The translations under genes were made by a program, and so were the position numbers. A DNA stretch of 64,000 nt, taken from positions 16,031,001-16,095,000 of the forward strand of contig NC_081812.1 in assembly GCF_030704535.1 (NCBI RefSeq). The letters are read 5' to 3'. Within the stretch, counting starts at the first letter, position 1. Each line of letters begins with the position of its first letter. The notes under the pieces are model-generated. The model was given only the letters and a program-made list of their open reading frames with translations, did no database searches and was not told where the DNA came from. Of the stretch, positions 26,521 through 60,717 are shown one piece after another. Source of the DNA: Vitis vinifera. Lineage: Eukaryota; Streptophyta; Magnoliopsida; Vitales; Vitaceae.

Positions 26521-28748
26521 TTAACATTTGGGAAGATCGGAGGGCGGAGGAGGCAGTTTTTGATTGGGACGCTTCCCATCCGTGACAACCCAGGCCATCT
26601 TCAATCCCCAGCTGGTGTGGACTTCCAGGTGGCAGTGCATAAACCAAACCCCTGTTCACCACATGGAAAAAAAATAAAAAAAATCATTATAAGAGCCACC
26701 CAAGTGCGGCAGTTTCTGTCTTGACCCATTACTAATTGGTGTATTAAATTGAGTTGTTCACCTACCAGGATTGTCTGCGCGGAAACGAATGGCCACCCAA
26801 CCGCCGGAAGGCACCCCCACGGTGTTTCTCTCTATGGGATCGACCAAGTTGAAATTGGCAGGATCCTTCTTGGGATCAAAGTTTCCGAATCCCTGTCCCA
26901 CCACATAGAAATTAAAGCCGTGCAGATGAAGTGGGTGGCTCTCTGCACCTATGATACTAGTGTCCTGCAACACCAACTCCACTCTTGTATTGAAGGGTAG
27001 CACCACCACCTTGGTCCCACTGTTTACAAGAATGTTGCTTGGGGGAGTACCCGTGTAGTTGAATTTGAAGGTTGGGTTTGCTGGGAAATCAGTGGTGTAG
27101 ACGCCCTTGGACTTTCCGAAGAAATGAGCTTGAAGAAGGGCTGTGCTTGGCTGCACAAATGACACATTGTTGATGGCAGCTGCTACCATGGTGTTGTTGG
27201 GTCCTGGGCACGCTTGGTTCCGTGAGCATTGGATTAGCCCCAGTCCCACCGTGAAGAAGAAGCGTCTATTCACTGTTTGTGGGACTTTTGCTGGAAATTT
27301 GTTAGAGGCTAAGCTGCGTAATTTCTTGCTGAATTTCATGGCAAAAATTGTGTCATTGAACATGGGAAGGGCTGGTTTGAGAACAGAGGGCTTTCTGTTC
27401 TTAGTGTTTGACACGGACGATTTGTGCTCATATTCTAAAATTCCAGCTGTTGTAGAATTGTCAAAAGCAGCAGGACCGGTGGCGTAAGACCTGGCCGCCA
27501 TGAGGAAGGTGGCGTTAGGGGAGTGAGATTTGGTCTTGAGAAGGATATTGGTAGTCTGTCCAGGGGTGATGACAAGAGTGTTGGTTTTAAATGGTTTCAC
27601 ATAGACTGCATCAACTTCAACCACGGTGACAGTATGGTTGGCTATGCTGAAGAAGAGCTCGTCATTGAGTGCTGCATTGATCAGCCGGAGGAGATAAGTC
27701 TTCCCCGGTTTCACCTTCAGCCTAAATGCATCTGCAACAAATATAATCTTTATTTAAATGCACCTATTCTGAGGCCATATTAAGTGCCCTTTAATTAAAT
27801 TGAAGCAGAACAAAATACCCTTAGCTGAGCAGTTATACAAGGGCCCGGGAAGACCATTCATGGTGTAAGCGTCGGAGACATTTGGGGCTCCTCCTGTTTG
27901 CATTGCTTGGTTAATCATGGTCTCTATGTCAGCTTTCCACCACTCGCCTGCAATATTAGAAAAAAGGCCCAACTCATGCAACTTAGATCAAGTACTGGAA
28001 GAAGGTAGTATATGATTTATTTGTAGAAATTTAAATTACCAAAGATGATGGGGACTTCTTTGAAGGGTTGGGGAAATGGGTAAGGGACACCTCGCTTAGG
28101 GAGGATGACAAGGGATCCATAGACAGTAGCTCTCAGCCATGAGATGTGAGCATGCCAAAATAAGGTCCCTCTCTGTCCAGTGATAGTGAAGTTGTACACA
28201 TAGCTCTGACCTGTCTGAATTGGGCACTGTGTGATGTAGGCAGGTCCATCCGCCCATCCGCTTCTTAGCTGCCGGATCCCATGCCTGTTCCTCTCAATTC
28301 AAGTACACATGTCAATAAATGCAACAGGGGATGAATACTAACCAGAGGAAGAACAACAATAAGAATAATAATAAAAGGAGGTTGCATACCAGTGGATTGT
28401 GATATTGTTTTGGACATGGTTAACTACTTTAATGATGACCCGATCACCTTCTCTTGCTATGATCCTAGGGCCTGGGAATTGTCCATTGACGGTAACAATA
28501 CTTTTTGTTTGGCATAATCTCGTCACTGTCTGCAGCTTAATCTGTAAAAAGACCATATGAAATCAGAATGTAATTTCACTAGCAAGTGGAGATGCAGAAA
28601 GATGTTTCACATGATGAGCATGAGATGCAGTACGTACATCAAACTTGTAGTGCCTGGTTGTGCCTGCGTGCTTTGCAAATACCAGCTCAGGCAAAACCCA
28701 GAAAGCACAAAATGCAAATAGCATAACCCTCACAAAGCCAGAACCCAT
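26521..28748 (-). CDS. LAC17-like: Laccase Lac-A, LAC17-like multicopper oxidase
   Basis: Secreted copper oxidase expected to oxidise monolignols in the cell wall. Exons: 28748-28638, 28541-28390, 28284-28040, 27947-27819, 27731-26766 and 26651-26521; all GT-AG, total 577 codons plus stop, the usual laccase size and six-exon layout. The N-terminus [14 protein letters not shown] is a signal peptide, with mature sequence starting near [12 protein letters not shown]. Copper blocks: [15 protein letters not shown] (from about residue 87), [12 protein letters not shown] (about 131), [10 protein letters not shown] (about 478) and [12 protein letters not shown] (about 540), ending in SDLPKC. A Leu follows the type-1 Cys by ten positions. 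Exon 5 carries a miR397-like site. A TATA box lies about 105 bp upstream of the ATG. From exon 5 to mid exon 3 it is nearly identical to Lac-C, including introns, which suggests conversion. Confidence 0.96.
27662..27682 (-). promoter_or_regulatory. miR397-type target site in Lac-A
   Basis: The plus strand reads tcattgagtgctgcattgat plus c. Compared with the conserved plant miR397 (UCAUUGAGUGCAGCGUUGAUG, from memory) it differs at positions 12, 15 (a G:U pair) and 21. The seed half is perfect. It lies over codons INAALNDE. Confidence 0.75.
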
Positions 28749-28873: not shown

Positions 28874-28900
28874 GCGTTTGGTTAAATTAGGTGATGAGAA
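28874..28900 (-). promoter_or_regulatory. Conserved AC-like element upstream of Lac-A
   Basis: The minus strand reads CACCTAATTTAACCAAAC just upstream of the TATA box. The same block occurs in Lac-B and Lac-C, and partly in Lac-D. It resembles AC elements (ACC-rich sites bound by lignin MYB factors); binding is inferred. Confidence 0.5.
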
Positions 28901-29550: not shown

Positions 29551-29772
29551 TGTTGGGTGTACATGCTCTATCTGATGTCTTCTTTTCGTAACGGACAACC
29601 ATGGAAGAAAATCATCACTCCACACATACAAGAAAAACCCTTTTAACTTCATCTATTCGTTTGTTGGGTGTACATGCTCTATCTGATGTCTTCTTTTCGT
29701 AACGGACAACCATGGAAGTAAATCATCACTCCACACATACAAGAAAAACCCTTTGACTTCATCTATTCGTTT
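29551..29772. repeat. Near-perfect tandem duplication, 111 bp x 2
   Basis: Copies at 29551-29661 and 29662-29772 are almost identical, including tgttgggtgtacatgctcta, gtaacggacaaccatgga and catcactccacacatacaag. They differ at only a couple of positions, so the duplication is recent. It lies about 0.8 kb upstream of Lac-A. Confidence 0.95.
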
Positions 29773-31433: not shown

Positions 31434-33677
31434 CTAGCATTTGGGAAGATCGGCGGGCGGAGGAGGCAGCTTTTGATTGGGACGCTTTCCATCCATGACA
31501 ACCCAGGCCATCTTCAACCCCCAGCTGGTGTGGACTTCCAGGTGGCAGTGCATAAACCAAACCCCTGTTCAACACGTGGAAAAAAAAAATAGTATGAGAA
31601 CCACCCAAGTGACGCAGTTTTCTATCTGATTTCGATCTTGGCGCATTACTAATTGGTATATTGAATTGAGTTCTATACACACCTGGATTGTCTGCGCGAA
31701 AACGAATGGCCACCCAACCGCCGGAAGGCACCCCCACGGTGTTTCTCTCTATGGGATCAACCAAGTTGAAATTGGATGGATCCTTCTTAGGATCAAAGTT
31801 TCCGAATCCCTGCCCCACCACATGGAAGTTAAAGCCGTGCAAGTGAAGAGGGTGGCTCTCTGCACCTATGATACTAGTGTCCTGCAACACCAACTCCACT
31901 CTTGTATTGAAGGGTAGCACCACTACCTTGGTCCCACTGTTTACAAGAATGTTGCTTGGGGGAGTGCCCGTGTAATTGAATTTAAAGGGTGGGTTTGCTG
32001 GGAAATCAGTGGTGTAGACGCCCTTGGACTTTCCGAAGAAATGAGCTTGAAGAAGGGCTGTGCTTGGCTGCACAAATGACACATTGTTGATGGCAGCTGC
32101 CACCATGGTGTTGTTGGGTCCTGGGCACGCTTGGTTCCGTGAGCATTGGATTAGCCCCAGTCCAACTGTGAAGAAGAAGCGTCTACTGACTGTTTGTGGG
32201 ACTTTTGCCGGGAATTTGGTAGTGGCCAAGCTGCGTAATTTCTTGCTGAAGCTCATCGCAAACAATGTGTCATTGAATGTGGGAAGTGCCGGTCTGTGGA
32301 CAGAGGGCCTTTTGTTCTTTGTGTTTGACATGGACGACATATGCTCGTATTCTAGGATTCCAGCTGTTGTGGAATTGTCAAAAGCAGCAGGACCGGTGGC
32401 GTAAGACCTGGCCGCCATGAGGAAGGTGGCGTTAGGGGAGTGAGATTTGGTCTTGAGAAGGATATTGGTAGTCTGTCCAGGGGTGATGACAAGAGTGTTG
32501 GTTTTAAATGGTTTCACATAGACTGCATCAACTTCAACTACGGTGACAGTATGGTTGGCTATGCTGAAGAAGAGCTCGTCATTGAGTGCAGCATTGATTA
32601 GCCGGAGGAGATAGGTCTTTCCCGGTTTCACCTTCAGCCTAAATGTATCTGCCACAAATATAATCTTTATTTAAATGAACCTATTCCTAGGCCAAATTAA
32701 GTGTCATTAAATTGAATTGAAGCAGTACAAAATACCCTTAGCGGAACAGTTATACAAAGGCCCGGGAAGACCATTAATGGTGTAAGCGTCGGAGACATTT
32801 GGGGCCCCTCCTGTTTGCATTGCCTGGTTAATCATAGTCTCTGTGTCAGCTTTCCACCACTCTCCTGCAATATTTTTTTTTTAAAAAAAAGCCCAACTCA
32901 TACAACTTAGATCACGTACTAGAAGAAGGCAGTATATGATTTAAACGTATAAATTTAAGTTACCAAAGATGATGGGGACTTCTTTAAAGGGTTGAGGAAA
33001 TGGGTAAGGGACACCTCGCTTAGGTAGGATGACAAGGGGTCCATAAAGAGTTGCTCTCAGCCATGAGATGTGGGCATGCCAGAATAAGGTCCCTCTCTGC
33101 CCTGTGATCGTGAAGTTGTACACATAGCTCTGTCCCGTCTGAATTGGGCACTGTGTGACGTAGGCAGGTCCATCTGCCCATCCGCTTCTTAGTTGCCGGA
33201 TTCCATGCCTGTTTCTCTCAATTTAAGCATACATGCAGCAATCTTTTATCACTAAATGCAACTGGAGATGAGTACTAAGGACAGGAACAACAATAAAAAT
33301 AAAAGGAGGGCTGCATACCAGTGAATTGTGATATTGTTCTGAACATTGTTAACCACCTTAATTAAGACCCGATCACCTTCTCTCGCTATGATCCGAGGCC
33401 CTGGGAATTGCCCATTGACTGTGACAATACTTTTTGTTTGACATAATCTGGTCACTTTCTGCAGTTTAATCTGCAAAAGACCAATAGAAAGCATAATGTT
33501 ATTTCACAAGGAAGTCAGCAATGCAGCATGGTATGTCAAATGTTGCGCATGTCAAGTAATACTTACATCGAAGTTGTAGTGTCTGGTAATGCCAGCATGC
33601 TTTGCAAGTACCAGCTCAGGCAAATTCCACAATGCACAAAGTGCAAATAGCATAACCCTCAGAAAGCAGGAACTCAT
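31434..33677 (-). CDS. LAC17-like: Laccase Lac-B, LAC17-like multicopper oxidase
   Basis: Same enzyme class and six-exon design as Lac-A. Exons: 33677-33567, 33470-33319, 33208-32964, 32864-32736, 32648-31683 and 31564-31434, giving 577 codons plus a TAG stop. I chose the ATG at 33677 ([14 protein letters not shown]) because it gives a signal peptide aligned with the other copies; an in-frame ATG upstream at 33761 would add a non-hydrophobic stretch that spans the TATA-leader region. All four copper blocks are intact ([46 protein letters not shown]). Exon 5 has the best miR397-like site of the cluster. Intron 5 is homologous to that of Lac-A. Lignin-type laccase activity in the wall is inferred from the LAC17 similarity. 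Confidence 0.96.
32579..32599 (-). promoter_or_regulatory. miR397-type target site in Lac-B
   Basis: The plus strand reads tcattgagtgcagcattgat plus t. It differs from miR397 only at position 15, a G:U pair, and at the last base. This is the strongest match in the window. Confidence 0.8.
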
Positions 33678-33794: not shown

Positions 33795-33820
33795 TGTGTT
33801 TGGTTAATTAGGTGATAAGA
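33795..33820 (-). promoter_or_regulatory. Conserved AC-like element upstream of Lac-B
   Basis: Minus-strand CACCTAATTAACCAAACA, the counterpart of the Lac-A element at 28874-28900, in the same position relative to the TATA box. Confidence 0.5.
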
Positions 33821-36847: not shown

Positions 36848-39089
36848 TCAACATTTGGGAAGATCCGATGGAGGAGGAGGTAGCTTTTGATTAGGACGCT
36901 TTCCATCCATGACAACCCAGGCCATCTTCAACCCCCAGCTGGTGTGGACTTCCAGGTGGCAATGCATAAACCAAACACCTGCTCCACAAATTTCAGAGTG
37001 ATAACAAATCAGACCATATAAGCTACGAAATTCAACCGAGTAATATCTAGAATCTAGTGGTAATTAATGTAAATATCGTCATATTAATGTCATCACTTGT
37101 ACGCACCTGGATTGTCTGCGTGGAAACGGATGGCCACCCAACCGCCTGAAGGCACCCCCACGGTGTTTCTCTCTATGGGATCGACCAAGTTGAAATTGGC
37201 AGGATCCTTCTTAGGATCAAAGTTTCCGAATCCCTGTCCCACCACATAGAAGTTAAAGCCGTGCAGATGAAGAGGGTGGCTCTCTGCACCTATGATACTA
37301 GTGTCCTGCAACACCAACTCCACTCTTGTATTGAAGGGTAGCACCACCACCTTGGTCCCACTGTTTACAAGAATGTTGCTTGGGGGAGTGCCCGTGTAGT
37401 TGAATTTGAAGGGTGGGTTTGCTGGGAAATCAGTGGTGTAGACGCCCTTGGACTTTCCAAAGAAATGAGCTTGAAGAAGGGCTGTGCTTGGCTGCACAAA
37501 TGACACATTGTTGATGGCAGCTGCTACCATGGTGTTGTTGGGTCCTGGGCACGCTTGGTTCCGTGAGCATTGGATTAGCCCCAGTCCCACCGTGAAGAAG
37601 AAGCGTCTATTCACTGTTTGTGGGACTTTTGCTGGAAATTTGTTAGAGGCTAAGCTGCGTAATTTCTTGCTGAATTTCATGGCAAAAATTGTGTCATTGA
37701 ACATGGGAAGGGCTGGTTTGAGAACAGAGGGCTTTCTGTTCTTAGTGTTTGACACGGACGATTTGTGCTCATATTCTAAAATTCCAGCTGTTGTAGAATT
37801 GTCAAAAGCAGCAGGACCGGTGGCGTAAGACCTGGCCGCCATGAGGAAGGTGGCGTTAGGGGAGTGAGATTTGGTCTTGAGAAGGATATTGGTAGTCTGT
37901 CCAGGGGTGATGACAAGAGTGTTGATTTTAAATGGTTTCACATAGACTGCATCAACTTCAACCACGGTGACAGTATGGTTGGCTATGCTGAAGAAGAGCT
38001 CGTCATTGAGTGCTGCATTGATCAGCCGGAGGAGATAAGTCTTCCCCGGTTTCACCTTCAGCCTAAATGTATCTGCAACAAATATAATCTTTATTTAAAT
38101 GCACCTATTCTGAGGCCATATTAAGTGCCCTTTAATTAAATTGAAGCAGAACAAAATACCCTTAGCTGAGCAGTTATACAAGGGCCCGGGAAGACCATTC
38201 ATGGTGTAAGCGTCGGAGACGTTTGGGGCTCCTCCTGTTTGCATTGCTTGGTTAATCATGGTCTCTATGTCAGCTTTCCACCACTCGCCTGCAATATTAA
38301 GAAAAAAGGCCCAACTCATGCAACTTAGATCGAGTACTAGAAGAAGGTAGTATATGATTTATTTGTAGAAATTTAAATTACCAAAGATGATGGGGACTTC
38401 TTTGAAGGGTTGGGGAAATGGGTAAGGGACACCTCGCTTAGGGAGGATGACAAGGGATCCATAGACGGTAGCCCTCAGCCATGAGATGTGAGCATGCCAG
38501 AATAAGGTCCCTCTCTGCCCAGTGATGGTGAAGTTGTATAAATAACTCTGGCCTGTCTGAATTGGGCATTGTGTAATGTAGGCAGGTCCATCTGCCCATC
38601 CGCTTCTTAGCTGCCGGATCCCATGCCTGTTCCTCTCAATTCAAGCATACATGTAGCAATCATTGATCAGCAAATGCAATTGGTAATGGATACCATCAAC
38701 TACAGCATATTATAAAAGGAGGGTTGCATACCAATGAATTGTAATATTGTTCTGAACATGGTTAACCACCTTAATGATGACCCGATCACCTTCTCTTGCT
38801 ATAATCCGAGGCCCTGGGAACTGCCCGTTGACAGTAACAATATTTTTGGATTGGCATAATCTCGTCACTTTCTGCAACTTAATCTGAAAAGGACCAATAG
38901 AAAGAAGACTGTTATTCCAGTAGGAAGTGGCAATGCAGCAAGATGTTTCACATAATGAGAATAAGATGAAGTGCGTACATCAAACTTGTAGTGCCTGGTA
39001 CTTCCAGCATGCTTTGCAAGTACCAGGTCAGGCAAAAACCACATTGCACAAACTGCAAACATGATAATCCTCATAATGCAAGAGCCCAT
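36848..39089 (-). CDS. LAC17-like: Laccase Lac-C, LAC17-like multicopper oxidase
   Basis: Third tandem laccase. Exons: 39089-38979, 38883-38732, 38626-38382, 38288-38160, 38072-37107 and 36978-36848, for 577 codons and a TGA stop. The signal peptide [14 protein letters not shown] is followed by mature [12 protein letters not shown]. All copper ligand blocks are intact ([46 protein letters not shown]). Over exon 5, intron 4, exon 4, intron 3 and most of exon 3 it differs from Lac-A at only a few positions, yet intron 5 and exons 1-2 differ clearly. It carries the same miR397-like site as Lac-A. The TATA box is weaker than in Lac-A and B. Role in the cell wall is inferred as for the others. Confidence 0.96.
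38003..38023 (-). promoter_or_regulatory. miR397-type target site in Lac-C
   Basis: Identical to the Lac-A site: perfect in the seed half, with differences from miR397 at positions 12, 15 (G:U) and 21. Confidence 0.75.
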
Positions 39090-39186: not shown

Positions 39187-39216
39187 GTGCGTTTGGTTTA
39201 TTAGGTAACAATGAGA
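39187..39216 (-). promoter_or_regulatory. Conserved AC-like element upstream of Lac-C
   Basis: Minus-strand TTACCTAATAAACCAAACGC, matching the Lac-A and Lac-B elements in place and core. Confidence 0.5.
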
Positions 39217-40037: not shown

Positions 40038-40374
40038 TCAACATGTGGGAAGATCAGACGGTGGAGGAGGCAACTTTTGATTGGGAAGCTTTCCCTCTAA
40101 GACGATCCAAACCATTTTCAAACCCCAGCTTGTGTGGACTTCCAGGTGGCAATGCATGAACCATACACCTGTCCACATGCATTGTCATCAATAGTTCGTT
40201 AGCACCAAACGTCAATATAGTAAAATGATTGAAATTATTTAATTTAACTTAGCTTATGTTTGGTTTAAAAAATAATTAAGGAAAGAAAAAATAATTAAGA
40301 AAAATGATTTTCTTATATTTGATTTTATGGTAAAAATATATAAAAAATAATCCAATATAATTAAAATTAATGAA

Positions 40375-40405
<31 letters not shown>

Positions 40406-43400
40406 ATTTATTTAATCTTTATATAACAAAATTAAATAAGTAAAATGAGTTTAAAATAAAAAATAAAAATAATTTTTTTGACTTTAAGTTTATTTATTAT
40501 TATCTCTCACGGTTTTTTTTTTCCATTTTTCCTTTTTATTTTTTTCCTTTACATTTTCTCATCTCAAATTCTCTTGAATCAATAGTAACATTAGAAATGT
40601 TTAACTGATTTTGATTCGATGAAAAATTTTGAATTTTTATTTAGAGGCTTCTCTCTCTCTCTTTGTTTTTTTATATAACTTTCTTAATTCATATCTTTGT
40701 TGAAAAATTTTCTTTTATAATTCCTATGGTTTAGAAAATACATATTCCCAGTTATACAAACAAATTGTTAATAGAACTCTAAAATTGTACATCCTTTTAT
40801 CTCTTTTTTTTCTTATCATTCAAAACAGAAAGACAAAAATTTAAAACAGAAAGACAAAAATTTCAAGATAGTAAATATTCTCTAGAATTTCTCTAATAAC
40901 TTCTCTCAATCTTGTGTAATTTTGATAAGTGTCAATTCACCATAAATTAGAAAGATTGTTATATAAAAAAAGTCAAATATTATAATTTTTTTAATAAATT
41001 ATTATTCAAAAACAAAACCATCAACGTAAAATAGCTTTATTTGAACAATAAATTAATAAAAATTAAATACTTATGATTTTAAAACGAAATTCAACTATAC
41101 ATAACAATTATTTTGTTTCATAATTCATCCAATTTTCATCGAAATCAAATTCCATAAATTGCTATAGATTTTTCACTTAAAAATAAAATTATTTTGAATT
41201 AAAAAATAATTTACTACAAAATTTCAAATTTTAATATTTTATCATCCAACAAAATCAAAATAAACTATCATTAATTCCAATAAATTTTTTTAATTAGAAC
41301 ATAAAATGAAATTTACAATTATATGATATTCACTACACTAAATAATTTCAATTGATTTTGAAAAACAAAAGTTAGAATTTAGAATTTTATCCCAAATTAA
41401 AAATCTAAAAATTCATAAATTAATAATAATGAAATAAATATTCTAACTTCAAATCCATAATCCAAAGATACACTCCATAAAAACAAGTTTTAACTTAAAA
41501 AAAATTGTATGAGATTTTTTTACCAACCAACTATAATTAAAACCCCTATTTATCATCCAACTATTTAACTAATTTTATAATTAATTATTATAAATTTTTT
41601 ATAATGATAATAAATTCTAATGTTTTTAAAGATATTATTTTTTGAACGGGTAAGTTTTAAATAAAAATAAAAATATATATAATAATAAGTTTTATAGATG
41701 TTTAATCTGTATTCATATTTTAAAACAAACATTACTTTAAATAAAATTTTAAAATAAAAATTATCAAAACATATTGTAATATGATATTAAACTTGGATAA
41801 ATTTTTAAAATAAAATTATCAAAACCTATCCTAATATAATATTAAAACAATATGTTTTAAATAGGTGAGAAGTTCCAAATTAAATAATTTTAATAAATTC
41901 AATTATGCATCGTATGAGTTTTAAGAAGACGAAGGTTATATTGGGTTTCAAAAAGTACTTAAAAAAAAACAAAAAAATATTTAAAAAAAATGATTTTCTT
42001 ATATTTTATTGCTTCAATAAAAAAACAAAAAAAAATAAATATAATCAAAATTAGTTAGGAATTTATGTATTTTCAAATTATTTATTTTTGATATCAACTA
42101 ATCAAAATAAGTGAAATAAGGTTAAAGTAATATATAAAACAAATTTATTAAATTTAACTCTATTTTTTATTTTCTTTAGCTTTTAGCCTTTTTCTTCTTT
42201 TTTTTTTCTACATTTTCTTTCTACTTTTGTTCCCTCCATTTTCCTTCCCTTAAATTTGTTCGTGAACCAAACATGACCAAAAAGAAAAAAAAGAAAAGTG
42301 TTGTTTATTACGCACCTGGGTTGTCCGCTAGAAACCGAATGGCAACCCAACCGCCGGAAGGCACACCCACAGTGTTCCTTTCTATGGGATCCACAAGATT
42401 GAATTTTGCGGGGTCCTTATTTGGATCATAGTTGCCGAAACCTTGGCCAACAACAAAGAAATTAAAGCCATGCAGGTGGAGAGGGTGGCTCTCCGCCCCA
42501 AGGATGCTCGTGTCCTGCATCACCAGCTCCACACTAGTATTATACGGTAGAACCACTGCTTTGGTTCCATTACTCACCATGGTGTTGTTTGGTGGGTTGC
42601 CCGTATAGTTAAATGGAGTTATGGGATTGTTGGGAAAGTCGGTTGTGTACACCCCATTTGATTGCCCAAAGAAGTAGGCTTGGAGAATGGCAGTGGTTGG
42701 AAGTACAAAAGATACGTTATTGATGGAAGCTGAGAATTTGGTTCTATTATTGGGTCCTTGGCAGGTTTGGTTGCGCGGGCATGGGTTTGTTCCTAGGCCT
42801 ACTGTGAAGAAGAATCGCCTCTCCACTTTCTGGGGAACTTTAGCTGGGAATTGAGCGCTAGCTAAGCTACGGATTTTTCTGGAGAAATTGGAAGCAAATG
42901 AAGTGTCATTAAAAGGAGGCAATGCCGGTTTGAAGAAAGGAAGATTCTTAGTTGAGGTGGAATTGAAAGGTGAAAAGTTTGATAACTCATATTCAAGGAT
43001 CCCGGCCACAGTGGAGTTGTCAAAGGTGCCTTGCCCTGTTGCATATGGCCTAGCATACATGAAGAAATTGGCCTTTGGGAAGTAGGGTTTGGTCTTGAGC
43101 AGAACATTTGTCGTCTGTCCAGGGGTGATGAGAAGCGTGTCGGTGTCAAAGGGTTTAACGTAAACCGCATCCACTTCTACCACTGTGATGGTGTGGTTTG
43201 CGATACTGAAGAAGAGCTCATCATCCACAGCTGCATTGATCAAACGGAGAAGGTAAGTCTTAGCAGGCTTCACCTTCAGTTTGAATGTATCTGCCAAGAC
43301 CCATTACACAAAATCAAGTTTAGCATCTGCAGTATAAATAATTACACGTACTTATTCCCAAAAAATACAATACTACCATACCTTTGGCAGAGCAGTTATA

Positions 43401-44359
43401 CAGTGGCCCTGGAAGGCCGTTGATGGTGTAAGCATCAGAGACATTTGGGCCTGCACCAGTTTGCAGTGCCTGGCTGATGACTGCCTCAGGATCTACATTC
43501 CACCACTCTCCTGCAATAGTACGTAACACTAAAGTTTTATGGAAACTGTCAACCCAGGAAAGAGACGTTGATCACAAATGAACAATTGTCAATGGTTGAT
43601 TACCGAAGATGATTGGAACTTCCTTATAAGGATTGCCGAATGGATAAGGGACATTAGGTTTGGGGAGAATGATTAAGGGACCATGGACAGTGGCTCTTAT
43701 CCACGATATATGGGCATGCCAGAAGAGAGTCCCTCTTTGGCCACTAACTGTGAAGTTGTACATATATCTCTGCCCAGTTCGAATGGGGCACTGAGTTATG
43801 TATGCAGGACCATCAGCCCACCCACTTCGAAGCTGTCTAATGCCATGCCTGATTCCAAGAAAACATATACACTTGCAAATTAGATAATGGTGTTTGATTT
43901 ATTCAAGGAACCATTGCATATTCGTAACTACCTATTATTTGGGTGAAGGTCCATACCAGTGGATACTGATGTTATTTTGAACATGGTTAACAACTTCAAC
44001 CAGAAGATTGTCACCTTCCCGAACTGTGACTAGAGGACCAGGAAACTTCCCATTTACAGTAATGACGCCCTTTGTGTGGCACAGTCGCGTCATTCTTACC
44101 AACTTGATCTACAAAATATTCTGAAAATATTAGAGAAATTAAAAGGAAGAAAACTAAAATCTAAAAATCAATTAATATTTGTCACAGCATTAATTCAGCA
44201 ATTTTAGTGCCACAACCATATGATACACACATCAAACTTGTAGCGCCTGGTTATGCCTGCATCCTTGGCAAGTGCGAGCTCAGGAAGGAGACTCGATGTT
44301 ATCAATGCGAAGAGAAAAACCCCCACAATAGCTGGAGATGAAAAAGGAAAAACGCCCAT
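40038..44359 (-). CDS. LAC17-like: Laccase Lac-D, diverged LAC17-like multicopper oxidase with a 2.1 kb intron
   Basis: Fourth laccase, clearly diverged from A-C. Exons: 44359-44231, 44108-43957, 43848-43604, 43510-43382, 43290-42316 and 40168-40038, for 586 codons plus a TGA stop. I chose the ATG giving [16 protein letters not shown], a signal peptide; in-frame ATGs further up would put a charged stretch in front. Copper blocks are intact: [46 protein letters not shown]. The protein ends DLPTC rather than DLPKC. Exon 5 is three codons longer than in A-C. Intron 5 is 2147 bp, against about 115-130 bp in A-C, and is filled with AT-rich repeats. The miR397 site is degraded. Laccase identity is certain; the substrate is inferred. 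Confidence 0.94.
40252..40565 (+). repeat. MITE-like AT-rich repeat in Lac-D intron 5, copy 3
   Basis: Starts near tatgtttggtttaaaaaata, contains gattttcttatatttgattt and an (AT)n run at 40377-40403, and ends after a pyrimidine-rich block with tttacattttctc. Resembles 41935-42285. Confidence 0.55.
41935..42285 (+). repeat. MITE-like AT-rich repeat in Lac-D intron 5, copy 4
   Basis: Starts near ttgggtttcaaaaagta, contains gattttcttatattttattg and aaaattagttaggaattt, and ends near gaaccaaacatgacc. The gtttgg.../...ccaaac ends suggest short terminal inverted repeats. Confidence 0.6.
43221..43241 (-). promoter_or_regulatory. Degraded miR397 site in Lac-D
   Basis: The plus strand reads tcatccacagctgcattgat plus c at the aligned position. 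The seed half has several mismatches to miR397 (TGAGTG replaced by CCACAG), so cleavage is unlikely. The codons are INAAVDDE. Confidence 0.7.
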
Positions 44360-44452
44360 TATGTCTCTATATTTTGAAAAGATGGTCATAAGAGCCTGAC
44401 GCATGAGCCTCAATCTGGTTATGAGTGGATTCATCAAAGCTTCGGAGATTAA

Positions 44453-44461: not shown

Positions 44462-44529
44462 GAGAGGGAAAGAAAAGGGTGTTTCGAGGATTAGGTGAAA
44501 CAATATAATTTAACTGAAAACAACTTTCT

Positions 44530-48870: not shown

Positions 48871-50196
48871 CTAGAGACCCACACCAAATCTCTGGCCAGC
48901 CAAATCACACTGTACCTGAGCAAAGCCAATTCTAGACTTTTCAAGATCGAATTCCATCCACACGTTCTGCTGATGATGGTGTCCAATTACGTACGCCTCC
49001 ACAGCTAAAAGATCCGAGTTCCCAAATGTGAAGCAATACACCGAATCACTTCCCCTCACTTCACCCGGTACCCGATACAACAACCGGTCACCCGAAACCT
49101 TCATCTCCGCCCCGCGAAACATCAGACTCACTGTCGGTAACCAGGGCAGACTCGTTTGACTCAGTGGAACCCGGTAGCACAGATCCATGCCACCCTGGAA
49201 AACGTAATTGGGATCCTCCAGGACACGCAGGATCTGTGATGTTTGATTTAGAAACTCGTTCCTCAACGCGCTGTACACCGGGCCTAGTAGAAACGTGAAC
49301 TGAGTTCCCGAATCCACCATGGTCTGACCTGCACCCGTGTGGTCCGGCACGAACACTGATTTGGGCAACGGAAGCAACTTAGACGAAACTTTAATCCCTT
49401 CCAGCTGAACCGTGTATGCCACTCGGTCAAAGTAAGGTAATGGGGTTGAGATTTGGATCAGTGGGGTGTAATTTAACGGCATCAGCCAAGAAAAATTAGC
49501 GTCCCCAAGCAATAACACGCCCGAGAAATCGGAGTCGGAAATGCAGTAGGAAAATTTCGGGAAATCCATTTGAGAAACGAAAGAGAGCGAGCCGCGATTC
49601 ATACCCATGAGTCCAGTGTTCTTGGAGTCCTCTTCTGTGTTGGTGCTGAAGCTGGAGTCCATGCACCCGAATATCGTACCGGGCATATCAGAGTTACCGA
49701 TATAGAAGGTGTCCGACGCGAGATTTCCCTCGGAAGAGGAGGCGTCGGCGTATGAGAGAATGGCGTGGCAGAGCTGGTTGGAATCGCAAGAAGCGGGAAT
49801 GGGGAAGTCGCGGGTACGGTCGGTACAGGTGAGAGAGGAACAAGGGACGGGTGAGTAGGAAGAGGATCGATTGGGGTCAAATGTGGTTTGGAAGGTTTGG
49901 GTTTTGTTGCAGCGAAGCCATGAGAGCTCGCTCCCGGTGTCGAGGACCATGGAGACGTTTTGTGGGGGAGTGCCTACAGTGAGTGAGACGGTGAGGCTTA
50001 CATTGTGGTGGAAGTGAAGTTTGTTTGGGGATCTGGGGAATGACCCAGATGGAACGACCTGGGTTTTGAGGGGAAGCACTAACATGTCTATTGATTTGGA
50101 AGCACATAAGCAGACTTGGATTTGAATTTGAACGAGAAACAAGGCGTTAGCAAGAAGAAAAGAGATGGATTTGAGAGAGGGAGTGGAGAGTGTCAT
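48871..50196 (-). CDS. PCS1-like: PCS1-like aspartic protease (nepenthesin-type, A1B)
   Basis: A secreted or endomembrane peptidase that cuts with two catalytic aspartates. It is a single uninterrupted frame of 441 residues. A hydrophobic N-terminus (about residues 10-31) acts as signal peptide. The mature domain shows FHHNVSLTVSLTVGTPPQN, the first active site VLDTGSELSW (DTGS about 86-89), a cysteine-rich nepenthesin insert around residues 119-143, the flap-region Tyr at LSYADASSSEGNLA, and the second site MVDSGTQFTF (DSGT about 295-298). The C-terminus has the family-typical IGHHHQQNVWMEFDLEKSRIGFA. Length, lack of introns and motif wording match Arabidopsis PCS1, which protects cells from death during gametogenesis and embryogenesis. 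The family is firm; that role here is inferred. Confidence 0.94.
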   Translation of the reverse strand: MTLSTPSLKSISFLLANALFLVQIQIQVCLCASKSIDMLVLPLKTQVVPSGSFPRSPNKLHFHHNVSLTVSLTVGTPPQNVSMVLDTGSELSWLRCNKTQTFQTTFDPNRSSSYSPVPCSSLTCTDRTRDFPIPASCDSNQLCHAILSYADASSSEGNLASDTFYIGNSDMPGTIFGCMDSSFSTNTEEDSKNTGLMGMNRGSLSFVSQMDFPKFSYCISDSDFSGVLLLGDANFSWLMPLNYTPLIQISTPLPYFDRVAYTVQLEGIKVSSKLLPLPKSVFVPDHTGAGQTMVDSGTQFTFLLGPVYSALRNEFLNQTSQILRVLEDPNYVFQGGMDLCYRVPLSQTSLPWLPTVSLMFRGAEMKVSGDRLLYRVPGEVRGSDSVYCFTFGNSDLLAVEAYVIGHHHQQNVWMEFDLEKSRIGFAQVQCDLAGQRFGVGL

Positions 50197-59619: not shown

Positions 59620-60717
59620 TCAAGACTGGTTGTGCCTTCTTGAGGATCTCTCGAACACTGTTTCAGGGTGACTTCCCTGCCTAGACCCAGTTTCTTGACT
59701 AGATCGAGAGGATGAAATTCTAAACCTCCCAAAAACAGATAAGAAATTGCGCATAACACGTCCGAATCCACCACCCTCTCTTGATCTTATTCCACTTGCA
59801 ACCCACGGATTCCTTCTGGAAGCACCACTGGGATTAAATCCGCCATCCATTTCCGTGAAAACAACAGGAAGCTCACGTTCTGCAGCTTGTCTTCCTCCAG
59901 TAAACCTTCCTACTGCAAAACCACCACCAGGGAGTCTCCATATTGTTAGCCCCACATTGTCTTCTTCTGTCAGACCGGGAGACTGCAGATGTCCTGAACT
60001 TCCACCTTCATGAGAATCCGTAGGCAACTCATGGCGGCAAACAGGGCAAGAATTACGGAGAGAGAGCCAAGGAAGGATACAATCAGAATGGTAAATGTGC
60101 TTGCATGGCAACTCACGAGCCTCCGAGTCAAGTTCGAAAGGTTCTTTGCACACAGCACAATGGGACTCACTCAAAACATGACTAGCAACAATCTTGATGG
60201 TGGGCAAAGACTCAACAGCAGCCTTTGAAGCCGGAGGGTGCTCACACCGCCCAGCTCCATTGATTTCTAATTGTGCCAATTGATCAAGAAGACGATCAAA
60301 CCCGGAACCCATCAGGAACTCGGACACGCTAGCAGGCAACGGCCTAAGTCCCGATCCTGTACCATCATCATAATACAATTCAAAGTTTCCCCTTTCACCA
60401 CTGGTACCGCCACCTTCACTGCCATTTACATCTGCAGAACCGCGGAGGACGATAACAGGGTTGAAAAGCGACCGATCACCTCCACTCCTCCTGGCCCGGC
60501 GAATTCTAGGAACCGGATCCTGATCCAAAGCATTCCTATTTTCGAGGTACATTGCCGATCCTGGAAGTCGACGACGCCGTGGAGATCGAGAGAGATTGTT
60601 GATTTGCTCCACGAATCCTGAACCGCAATCAGGACATAGGATTGCATCTTGAGCCCAAACCCTGATGAACCTGTTGCATCTGTAACACCAAAATGAAGAT
60701 CCACTCGCAGCCATCAT
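59620..60717 (-). CDS. RDUF1-like: RING E3 ubiquitin ligase, RDUF type (zinc ribbon, RING-H2, DUF1117)
   Basis: Transfers ubiquitin from an E2 to target proteins. It is a single uninterrupted frame of 365 residues. The N-terminus has a zinc ribbon (FWCYRCNRFIRV and LCPDCGSGFVEQI, about residues 9-39). A low-complexity linker follows, then a helical segment GFDRLLDQLAQLE. The RING-H2 lies at about residues 187-229: CAVCKEPFELD, LPCKHIYHSDCILPWL, NSCPVCRHEL, with all eight zinc ligands in place. The C-terminal DUF1117 block shows VGLTIWRLPGGGFAVGRF, ELPVVFTEMDGGFN and RRNPWVASG. The domain order equals Arabidopsis RDUF1/RDUF2, linked to abscisic acid and drought responses. The ligase call is firm; the stress role is inferred. 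An intron in the 5' UTR is likely between about 60760 and 61040. Confidence 0.95.
   Translation of the reverse strand: MMAASGSSFWCYRCNRFIRVWAQDAILCPDCGSGFVEQINNLSRSPRRRRLPGSAMYLENRNALDQDPVPRIRRARRSGGDRSLFNPVIVLRGSADVNGSEGGGTSGERGNFELYYDDGTGSGLRPLPASVSEFLMGSGFDRLLDQLAQLEINGAGRCEHPPASKAAVESLPTIKIVASHVLSESHCAVCKEPFELDSEARELPCKHIYHSDCILPWLSLRNSCPVCRHELPTDSHEGGSSGHLQSPGLTEEDNVGLTIWRLPGGGFAVGRFTGGRQAAERELPVVFTEMDGGFNPSGASRRNPWVASGIRSREGGGFGRVMRNFLSVFGRFRISSSRSSQETGSRQGSHPETVFERSSRRHNQS

Follow-up and report, generated by a model that had tools for sequence, protein, structure and literature searches.

An intact grapevine laccase gene with an apparent derived loss of its miR397 site

Four laccase genes, here called Lac-A to Lac-D, lie next to one another on the minus strand of a 64,000-nucleotide stretch of Vitis vinifera DNA (C8:16031001–16095000, hereafter the window; positions without a contig name refer to it). 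At the place where three of them can pair with miR397, Lac-D reads differently. Did a functioning laccase lose a repressor site that its ancestor carried, or was the site never there, and would a loss have required selection? A preliminary description of this DNA had proposed that Lac-D escapes miR397 repression linked to copper and lignin and remains active while the adjacent genes are switched off.

Integrity of the genes and their pairing with miR397

The gene models were built from homology and splice signals, without transcript support. Lac-A (26521–28748), Lac-B (31434–33677), and Lac-C (36848–39089) each comprise six exons encoding 577 aa, and Lac-D (40038–44359) has six exons (44359–44231, 44108–43957, 43848–43604, 43510–43382, 43290–42316, and 40168–40038) and an intact frame of 586 aa. 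All introns of the four models have GT–AG borders. An in-frame ATG is present at 44434, upstream of the modelled Lac-D start. Intron 5 of Lac-D (40169–42315) measures 2147 nt compared with 114–128 nt in the other three genes, possibly owing to an old insertion. Lac-D passes the laccase model TIGR03389 (904.7 bits, cut-off 558.9) and falls below the cut-off of the ascorbate oxidase model TIGR03388 (301.7 against 614.8 bits). Its four copper-ligand motifs, which we take to be HWHG, HAH, HPLHLHG, and HCHLEVH in plant laccases, are located at positions 93, 138, 487, and 549, and among solved structures its sequence matches best to a laccase, 6klg, presumably the maize enzyme. Pairwise dN/dS between Lac-D and the members of its clade is 0.06–0.16, suggesting that the gene remained under purifying selection while the site changed. 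The open frame, the six GT–AG exons, the intact copper motifs, and these dN/dS values led us to reject a pseudogene. Between Lac-A and Lac-B, the window also contains a 93-nt direct repeat (29551–29643 and 29662–29754, 99% identical, spaced 111 nt). Searches of the window returned no match to described RNA families over their gathering scores and no tRNA.

The genome searched (495.6 Mb, 21 contigs) has one locus above the Rfam MIR397 cut-off, C10:4837158–4837279, the reverse strand of which stays below it. This hairpin contains the 21-mer TCATTGAGTGCAGCGTTGATG, which is also the sequence of vvi-miR397a in Table 2 of PMC6366190; the miRNA sequence assumed in the preliminary description was therefore right. 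Exact matches to the degenerate antisense site occur at ten positions in the genome, namely the MIR397 locus and nine in laccase exons, including those of Lac-A, Lac-B, and Lac-C. In the 1500 nt before the hairpin match (L039) there are 7 GTAC motifs, counted as simple consensus matches, against the 3.9 that shuffled bases would give; six are packed at −236 to −127, that is, within approximately 110 nt.

We scored pairing by an Allen-type scheme (mismatch 1, G:U 0.5, both doubled at miRNA nt 2–13). The Lac-A site (27662–27682) scores 3.5, with mismatches at nt 12 and 21 and G:U at nt 15, and the Lac-C site (38003–38023) is identical to it; both read GATCAATGCAGCACTCAATGA in the sense direction. 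The Lac-B site (32579–32599; AATCAATGCTGCACTCAATGA) scores 1.5, with a mismatch at nt 21 and G:U at nt 15, and is the strongest of the four. The aligned place in Lac-D (43221–43241; GATCAATGCAGCTGTGGATGA) scores 10.5, with mismatches at nt 6, 8, 9, 12, and 21 and G:U at nt 5 and 15. Plant targets usually have a duplex energy of at least about 70% of that of the perfect duplex. Lac-A, Lac-B, and Lac-C (78, 91, and 78%) satisfy both this limit and a score of ≤4, and Lac-D (49%) fails both; under a stricter cut-off of ≤3, Lac-A and Lac-C no longer count as targets. The next best 21-mer elsewhere in the transcript scores 10.5 in Lac-A and 11.0 in Lac-B and Lac-C, so the sites of these three genes stand clear of the background and the 10.5 of Lac-D equals it.

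These results bear out much of the preliminary description. The four 21-nt places lie where it had put them, in exon 5 of minus-strand genes, the peptide change from INAALNDE to INAAVDDE in Lac-D is correct, and the check it had proposed, scoring miR397 against all four genes, separates 3.5, 1.5, and 3.5 from 10.5. As for the perfect seed half that it had given for Lac-A to Lac-C, pairing in Lac-A and Lac-C is perfect over nt 1–11 only, and both sites are weaker than that of Lac-B. The five to six seed-half changes that it had attributed to Lac-D need correction: the ungapped alignment has 4–6 differences to relatives (six to Lac-B, 4 to Lac-A, 5 to the laccase locus L010), and the seed-half pairs altered relative to Lac-A and Lac-C number four (nt 5, 6, 8, and 9), the nt 12 mismatch being common to all three genes.

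The Lac-D coding sequence with 300 nt of 5′ and 400 nt of 3′ genomic flank contains no plausible miR397 site, either at the aligned place or outside it (best score 10.5, then 12.0), in agreement with the absence first claimed. A substitute site was also sought in the same stretch for 35 grape miRNAs, part of the rows in Table 2 of PMC6366190, and none scored ≤6. The antisense of the Lac-D site, searched in the genome at 0–2 mismatches, occurs only at Lac-D itself; a miRNA that co-evolved with the altered site is therefore rejected, and no rewired partner is seen.

Kinship of Lac-D and direction of the change

Exon 5 has 125 matches in the genome, of which 87 (85 loci) were scored; the other 38 are fragments, split copies, members of a group on C7, and the like, several of which span the site. 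Of 72 long rows without stops (8 others contained them), 36 went into the tree, which places Lac-D in a clade of 12 laccases, presumably of the LAC17 type, with support of 100/100. Lac-A to Lac-C branch off first, and the remaining nine genes group at 95/88. L017 branches next, and Lac-D groups with genes on C6 and C13 at 97/92; the fork that unites the C6 and C13 genes apart from Lac-D is weak (85/52). The lowest dS values of Lac-D, 0.74–0.75, are to the C6 genes. Lac-D thus belongs to the cluster in that it adjoins Lac-A to Lac-C, but its nearest relatives are located on C6 and C13. L017 (C8:16019917–16020885, plus strand, opposite to the four genes) lies approximately 10 kb before the window and is the fifth clade laccase on this contig.

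Two genes flanking Lac-D have their best relatives on the same contigs. A RING gene (59620–60717) is closest to sequences at C6:6.05 Mb (68%) and C13:3.38 Mb (65%), and an aspartyl-protease-like gene (48871–50196) matches best at C13:3.37 Mb (74%). The paralogs of Lac-D sit in duplicated blocks, as judged from these two flanking genes, both of which point to C13 and one also to C6. We take C6, C8, and C13 to be a triplet of the core-eudicot triplication.

All clade members except Lac-D score ≤4 at the site (range 1.0–4.0, MFE 78–96%). The number passing falls from 11/12 at ≤4 to 7/12 at ≤3 and 6/12 at ≤2.5; Lac-A, Lac-C, and L015 (3.5 each) and L016 (4.0) are borderline targets. Since Lac-D alone among the 12 lacks the site, its absence there is derived, and the site was most likely present before Lac-D split off and lost on its own line. 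That three neighbours keep the site, as the preliminary description had put it, holds at the ≤4 cut-off but does not amount to three independent facts. Exon 5 is 94–99% identical among Lac-A, Lac-B, and Lac-C. Lac-A and Lac-C have identities of 0.82, 0.88, 0.95, 0.99, 0.99, and 0.91 over exons 1 to 6, of 0.98 and 1.00 in introns 3 and 4, and of 0.80, 0.75, and 0.56 in introns 1, 2, and 5. This pattern fits recent gene conversion over exons 3–5, and because the conversion-like tract includes the site, Lac-A to Lac-C are not independent witnesses.

Over the whole family, absence of the site is common, and only within the 12-gene clade is it unique to Lac-D. Scores of ≤4 were found at 18/85 loci: 11/12 in the clade, 1/60 in the C18 group, and 6/13 among the others. 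Contig C18 carries a very large laccase expansion at about 18.8–28.0 Mb, in which L058 (score 3.5) is the sole examined locus at ≤4. The 67/85 aligned sites above 4, which include 59/60 in the C18 group as well as L022 (4.5), L024 (5.5), L027 (7.0), L031 (5.5), L032 (11.5), L034 (9.0), and L087 (16.5) outside the clade, would agree with the idea that the Lac-D lineage never had a site. We consider this very improbable: the other 11 clade members, among them the earlier-branching Lac-A to Lac-C and L017, all have scores of ≤4, as do L021, L023, L025, L026, L036, and L081 outside the clade (0.5–3.5), and the site would have had to arise in parallel many times at the same aligned position.

One of the loci outside the clade, L027 (C13:4481116–4482033), resembles Lac-D in that its site has decayed through GTG (Val) at the codon for the Leu of AAL, giving VNAAVNDE, and its score compares with 3.0 and 0.5 in its tree neighbours L025 and L023. 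The decay of L027 is weaker (MFE 65%), and because it belongs to a different clade, it is an independent event.

Drift, selection, and promoter motifs

Overall divergence at the Lac-D site is ordinary. Compared with Lac-A, there are 4 differences per 21 nt at the site against an exon mean of 6.25; compared with L013, there are 6 against a mean of 4.02, and 61/319 windows of the exon are as high or higher. Changes private to Lac-D, counted among the 12 clade members only, are somewhat concentrated: three of the 14 fall in the site's 16 otherwise invariant columns, out of 499 such columns (hypergeometric P = 0.008), and 27/958 windows reach three. At the protein level, two of seven private residues are located in INAALNDE, a number reached by 14/319 windows. 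This mild excess could mean a selected loss; the changes are few, and all three private site changes stand in neighbouring codons. Codon difference among the other 11 clade members is 0.288 at the site and 0.431 elsewhere, and since 8/15 comparable windows have a difference as low as the site or lower, the sequence alone is no proof of selection on miR397 pairing in grape. With the ordinary divergence at the site, drift suffices for the loss in Lac-D. If the lineage age is taken as 100–140 My and a rice rate of site gain and loss is used as the loss rate, the chance of loss on one lineage is, roughly, 0.26–0.34. The rate itself, 3.0e-9 per year, is the one given for rice miRNA sites in the available text of PMC2567346.

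The promoters were compared by simple consensus matches to the SMRE, ACC(A/T)A(A/C)(T/C) (as given in the available part of PMC4419676), with the count anchored on the TATA box. In the clade, two motifs that match this consensus, typically ACCTAAT and ACCAAAC, precede the TATA box; shuffling predicts 0.06 matches per 60 nt. Both motifs are present in 9/12 clade genes, among them L012 with three; Lac-D and L017 have one, and L015 has none. On the minus strand of the window, the pair is intact in Lac-A (28876–28892), and ACCAAAC is found in Lac-B (33798–33804) and Lac-C (39191–39197) with the first motif, ACCTAAT in Lac-B, just upstream. Lac-D has kept ACCTAAT (44490–44496) upstream of its TATA box, and the second motif (44481–44487), which is ACCAAAC in the nine genes, has decayed to TCGAAAC. 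A presumed activator motif as well as the repressor site has thus been loosened in Lac-D, and the motif loss suggests that the gene may be partly out of shared lignification control. As one of the two secondary-wall MYB motifs is lost, Lac-D is possibly expressed elsewhere or more weakly, and staying on while the neighbours are shut down is not the sole reading of the site loss.

We propose that Lac-D represents, on C8, a set of laccases distributed across related blocks of C6, C8, and C13, and that its ancestor carried the miR397 site. Substitutions on the Lac-D line, mainly those that turned Leu into Val (GTG) and Asn into Asp (GAT) in adjacent codons, would have changed pairing at miRNA nt 5, 6, 8, and 9. 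Slicing by plant miRNAs depends most on the miRNA half that holds these positions. The Lac-D mRNA would accordingly escape cleavage by miR397, and those of Lac-A, Lac-B, and Lac-C would be cleaved, that of Lac-B most strongly. No special selection is needed in this account; among many laccase paralogs, drift would be enough once upkeep of the site stopped mattering. We put the probability that Lac-D is an intact C8 laccase of this set that lost an ancestral site on its own line, with drift sufficient, at approximately 0.8.

A possible, less favoured course of events is that Lac-D first left the xylem and lignin domain and that the unneeded miR397 site and MYB motif then decayed. The pair beside the TATA box in nine of the 12 genes, with one motif left in Lac-D, agrees with this order. 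The remaining ACCTAAT nevertheless fits the SMRE consensus by itself, and L017 (one motif) and L015 (none) still score 3.0 and 3.5 at the site; as these genes lost motifs and kept the site, the two losses need not be linked, and motif loss was rejected as proof of such a departure. Selection might instead have favoured the loss itself, so that Lac-D supplies laccase whenever miR397 rises, at low copper or on other cues, and Lac-A to Lac-C are thereby shut down. The excess of private changes and the intact, constrained gene would suit this scenario, as would the GTAC motifs before the MIR397 hairpin, which fit SPL7-type copper control of miR397 (available text of PMC9887407), and the fall of grape miR397a reads from 21 to 0 under copper excess (PMC6366190, Table 2). 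We regard it as unlikely, given that only a few, closely spaced changes are private to Lac-D in a site of ordinary total divergence, that Lac-D has also lost an activating-type motif, and that a copper enzyme kept on during copper shortage would bring no obvious benefit. Assembly error or a pseudogene is the least probable explanation, close to negligible: neither the gene model nor dN/dS yielded any support for it, and the features of the intact gene given above speak against it. A regulatory consequence of the site loss is plausible; the copper logic and the idea that Lac-D stays on are conjecture.

Comparable losses and implications

A close precedent is the rice whole-genome duplicate Os01g62600, which lost its miR397 site with up to five mismatches (Guo et al. 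2008, available part). The miRNA is the same as in Lac-D, the site is older than the duplication, and one duplicate lost it while its relative kept it. As in most gains and losses described there, the change in Lac-D came about by base substitution, without gaps. The rice genes differ from ours in stemming from a duplication of ~70 My and in being annotated as L-ascorbate oxidase precursors, although they are probably of laccase type; Lac-D belongs to the grape C6, C8, and C13 blocks and adjoins three site-bearing copies. In Arabidopsis, divergence at miRNA sites affects the vast majority of the duplicates that carry them (Wang and Adams 2015, PMC5322543), and Lac-D shares such divergence; the words laccase and miR397 are absent from the main text of that paper.

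In pear, 27 potential miR397a targets compare with 38 LAC genes (PMC6330545). The available parts of PMC6330545, PMC6366190, and PMC6404619 agree with our data on a miR397a–LAC module in which the site lies in the coding part of the Cu-oxidase and the family is partly targeted, and name neither Lac-D nor any site loss. Grapevine degradomes contained no slice-signature reads for miR397 targets (PMC6404619), which makes an absence of cleavage in Lac-A to Lac-C hard to score from such data; the same source states that grape LACCASE11 was validated by RLM-RACE elsewhere. The main text of the grape laccase family paper (PMC11476532), in its available form, mentions neither miR397 nor miRNA, and its VviLAC names are therefore not tied to Lac-D. 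No paper naming the site loss in Lac-D was found in our literature search, in which subscription papers were mostly outside the scope. A 2018 paper in Acta Horticulturae Sinica reportedly deals with VvmiR397a and the VvLAC genes that it targets; its data may be relevant here.

Judged from the genome sequence, the loss of the miR397 site in Lac-D is real and derived, concerns an intact gene, and adds a further case to the type of loss published for rice; in evolutionary terms it exemplifies a process already known. It can be assigned to a single branch of the tree, which allows the comparison of one free gene with eleven that have the site. Should Lac-D indeed evade miR397, most laccases of the clade would be lost in a vine with elevated miR397, and Lac-D would be kept. 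Such an escape would bear on how the phenotypes of miR397 overexpression or copper starvation are read and on the choice of laccase targets for wood or seed-coat lignin. We further suggest, tentatively and with some doubt, that the activating SMRE pair and the repressing miR397 site may have been kept together in most clade genes since the triplication and both loosened in Lac-D. If so, Lac-D would be a laccase naturally insensitive to miR397, with an expression domain of its own next to sensitive sister genes, and would provide a built-in control for the effect of miR397 on laccase activity in the wood and berry of the vine.
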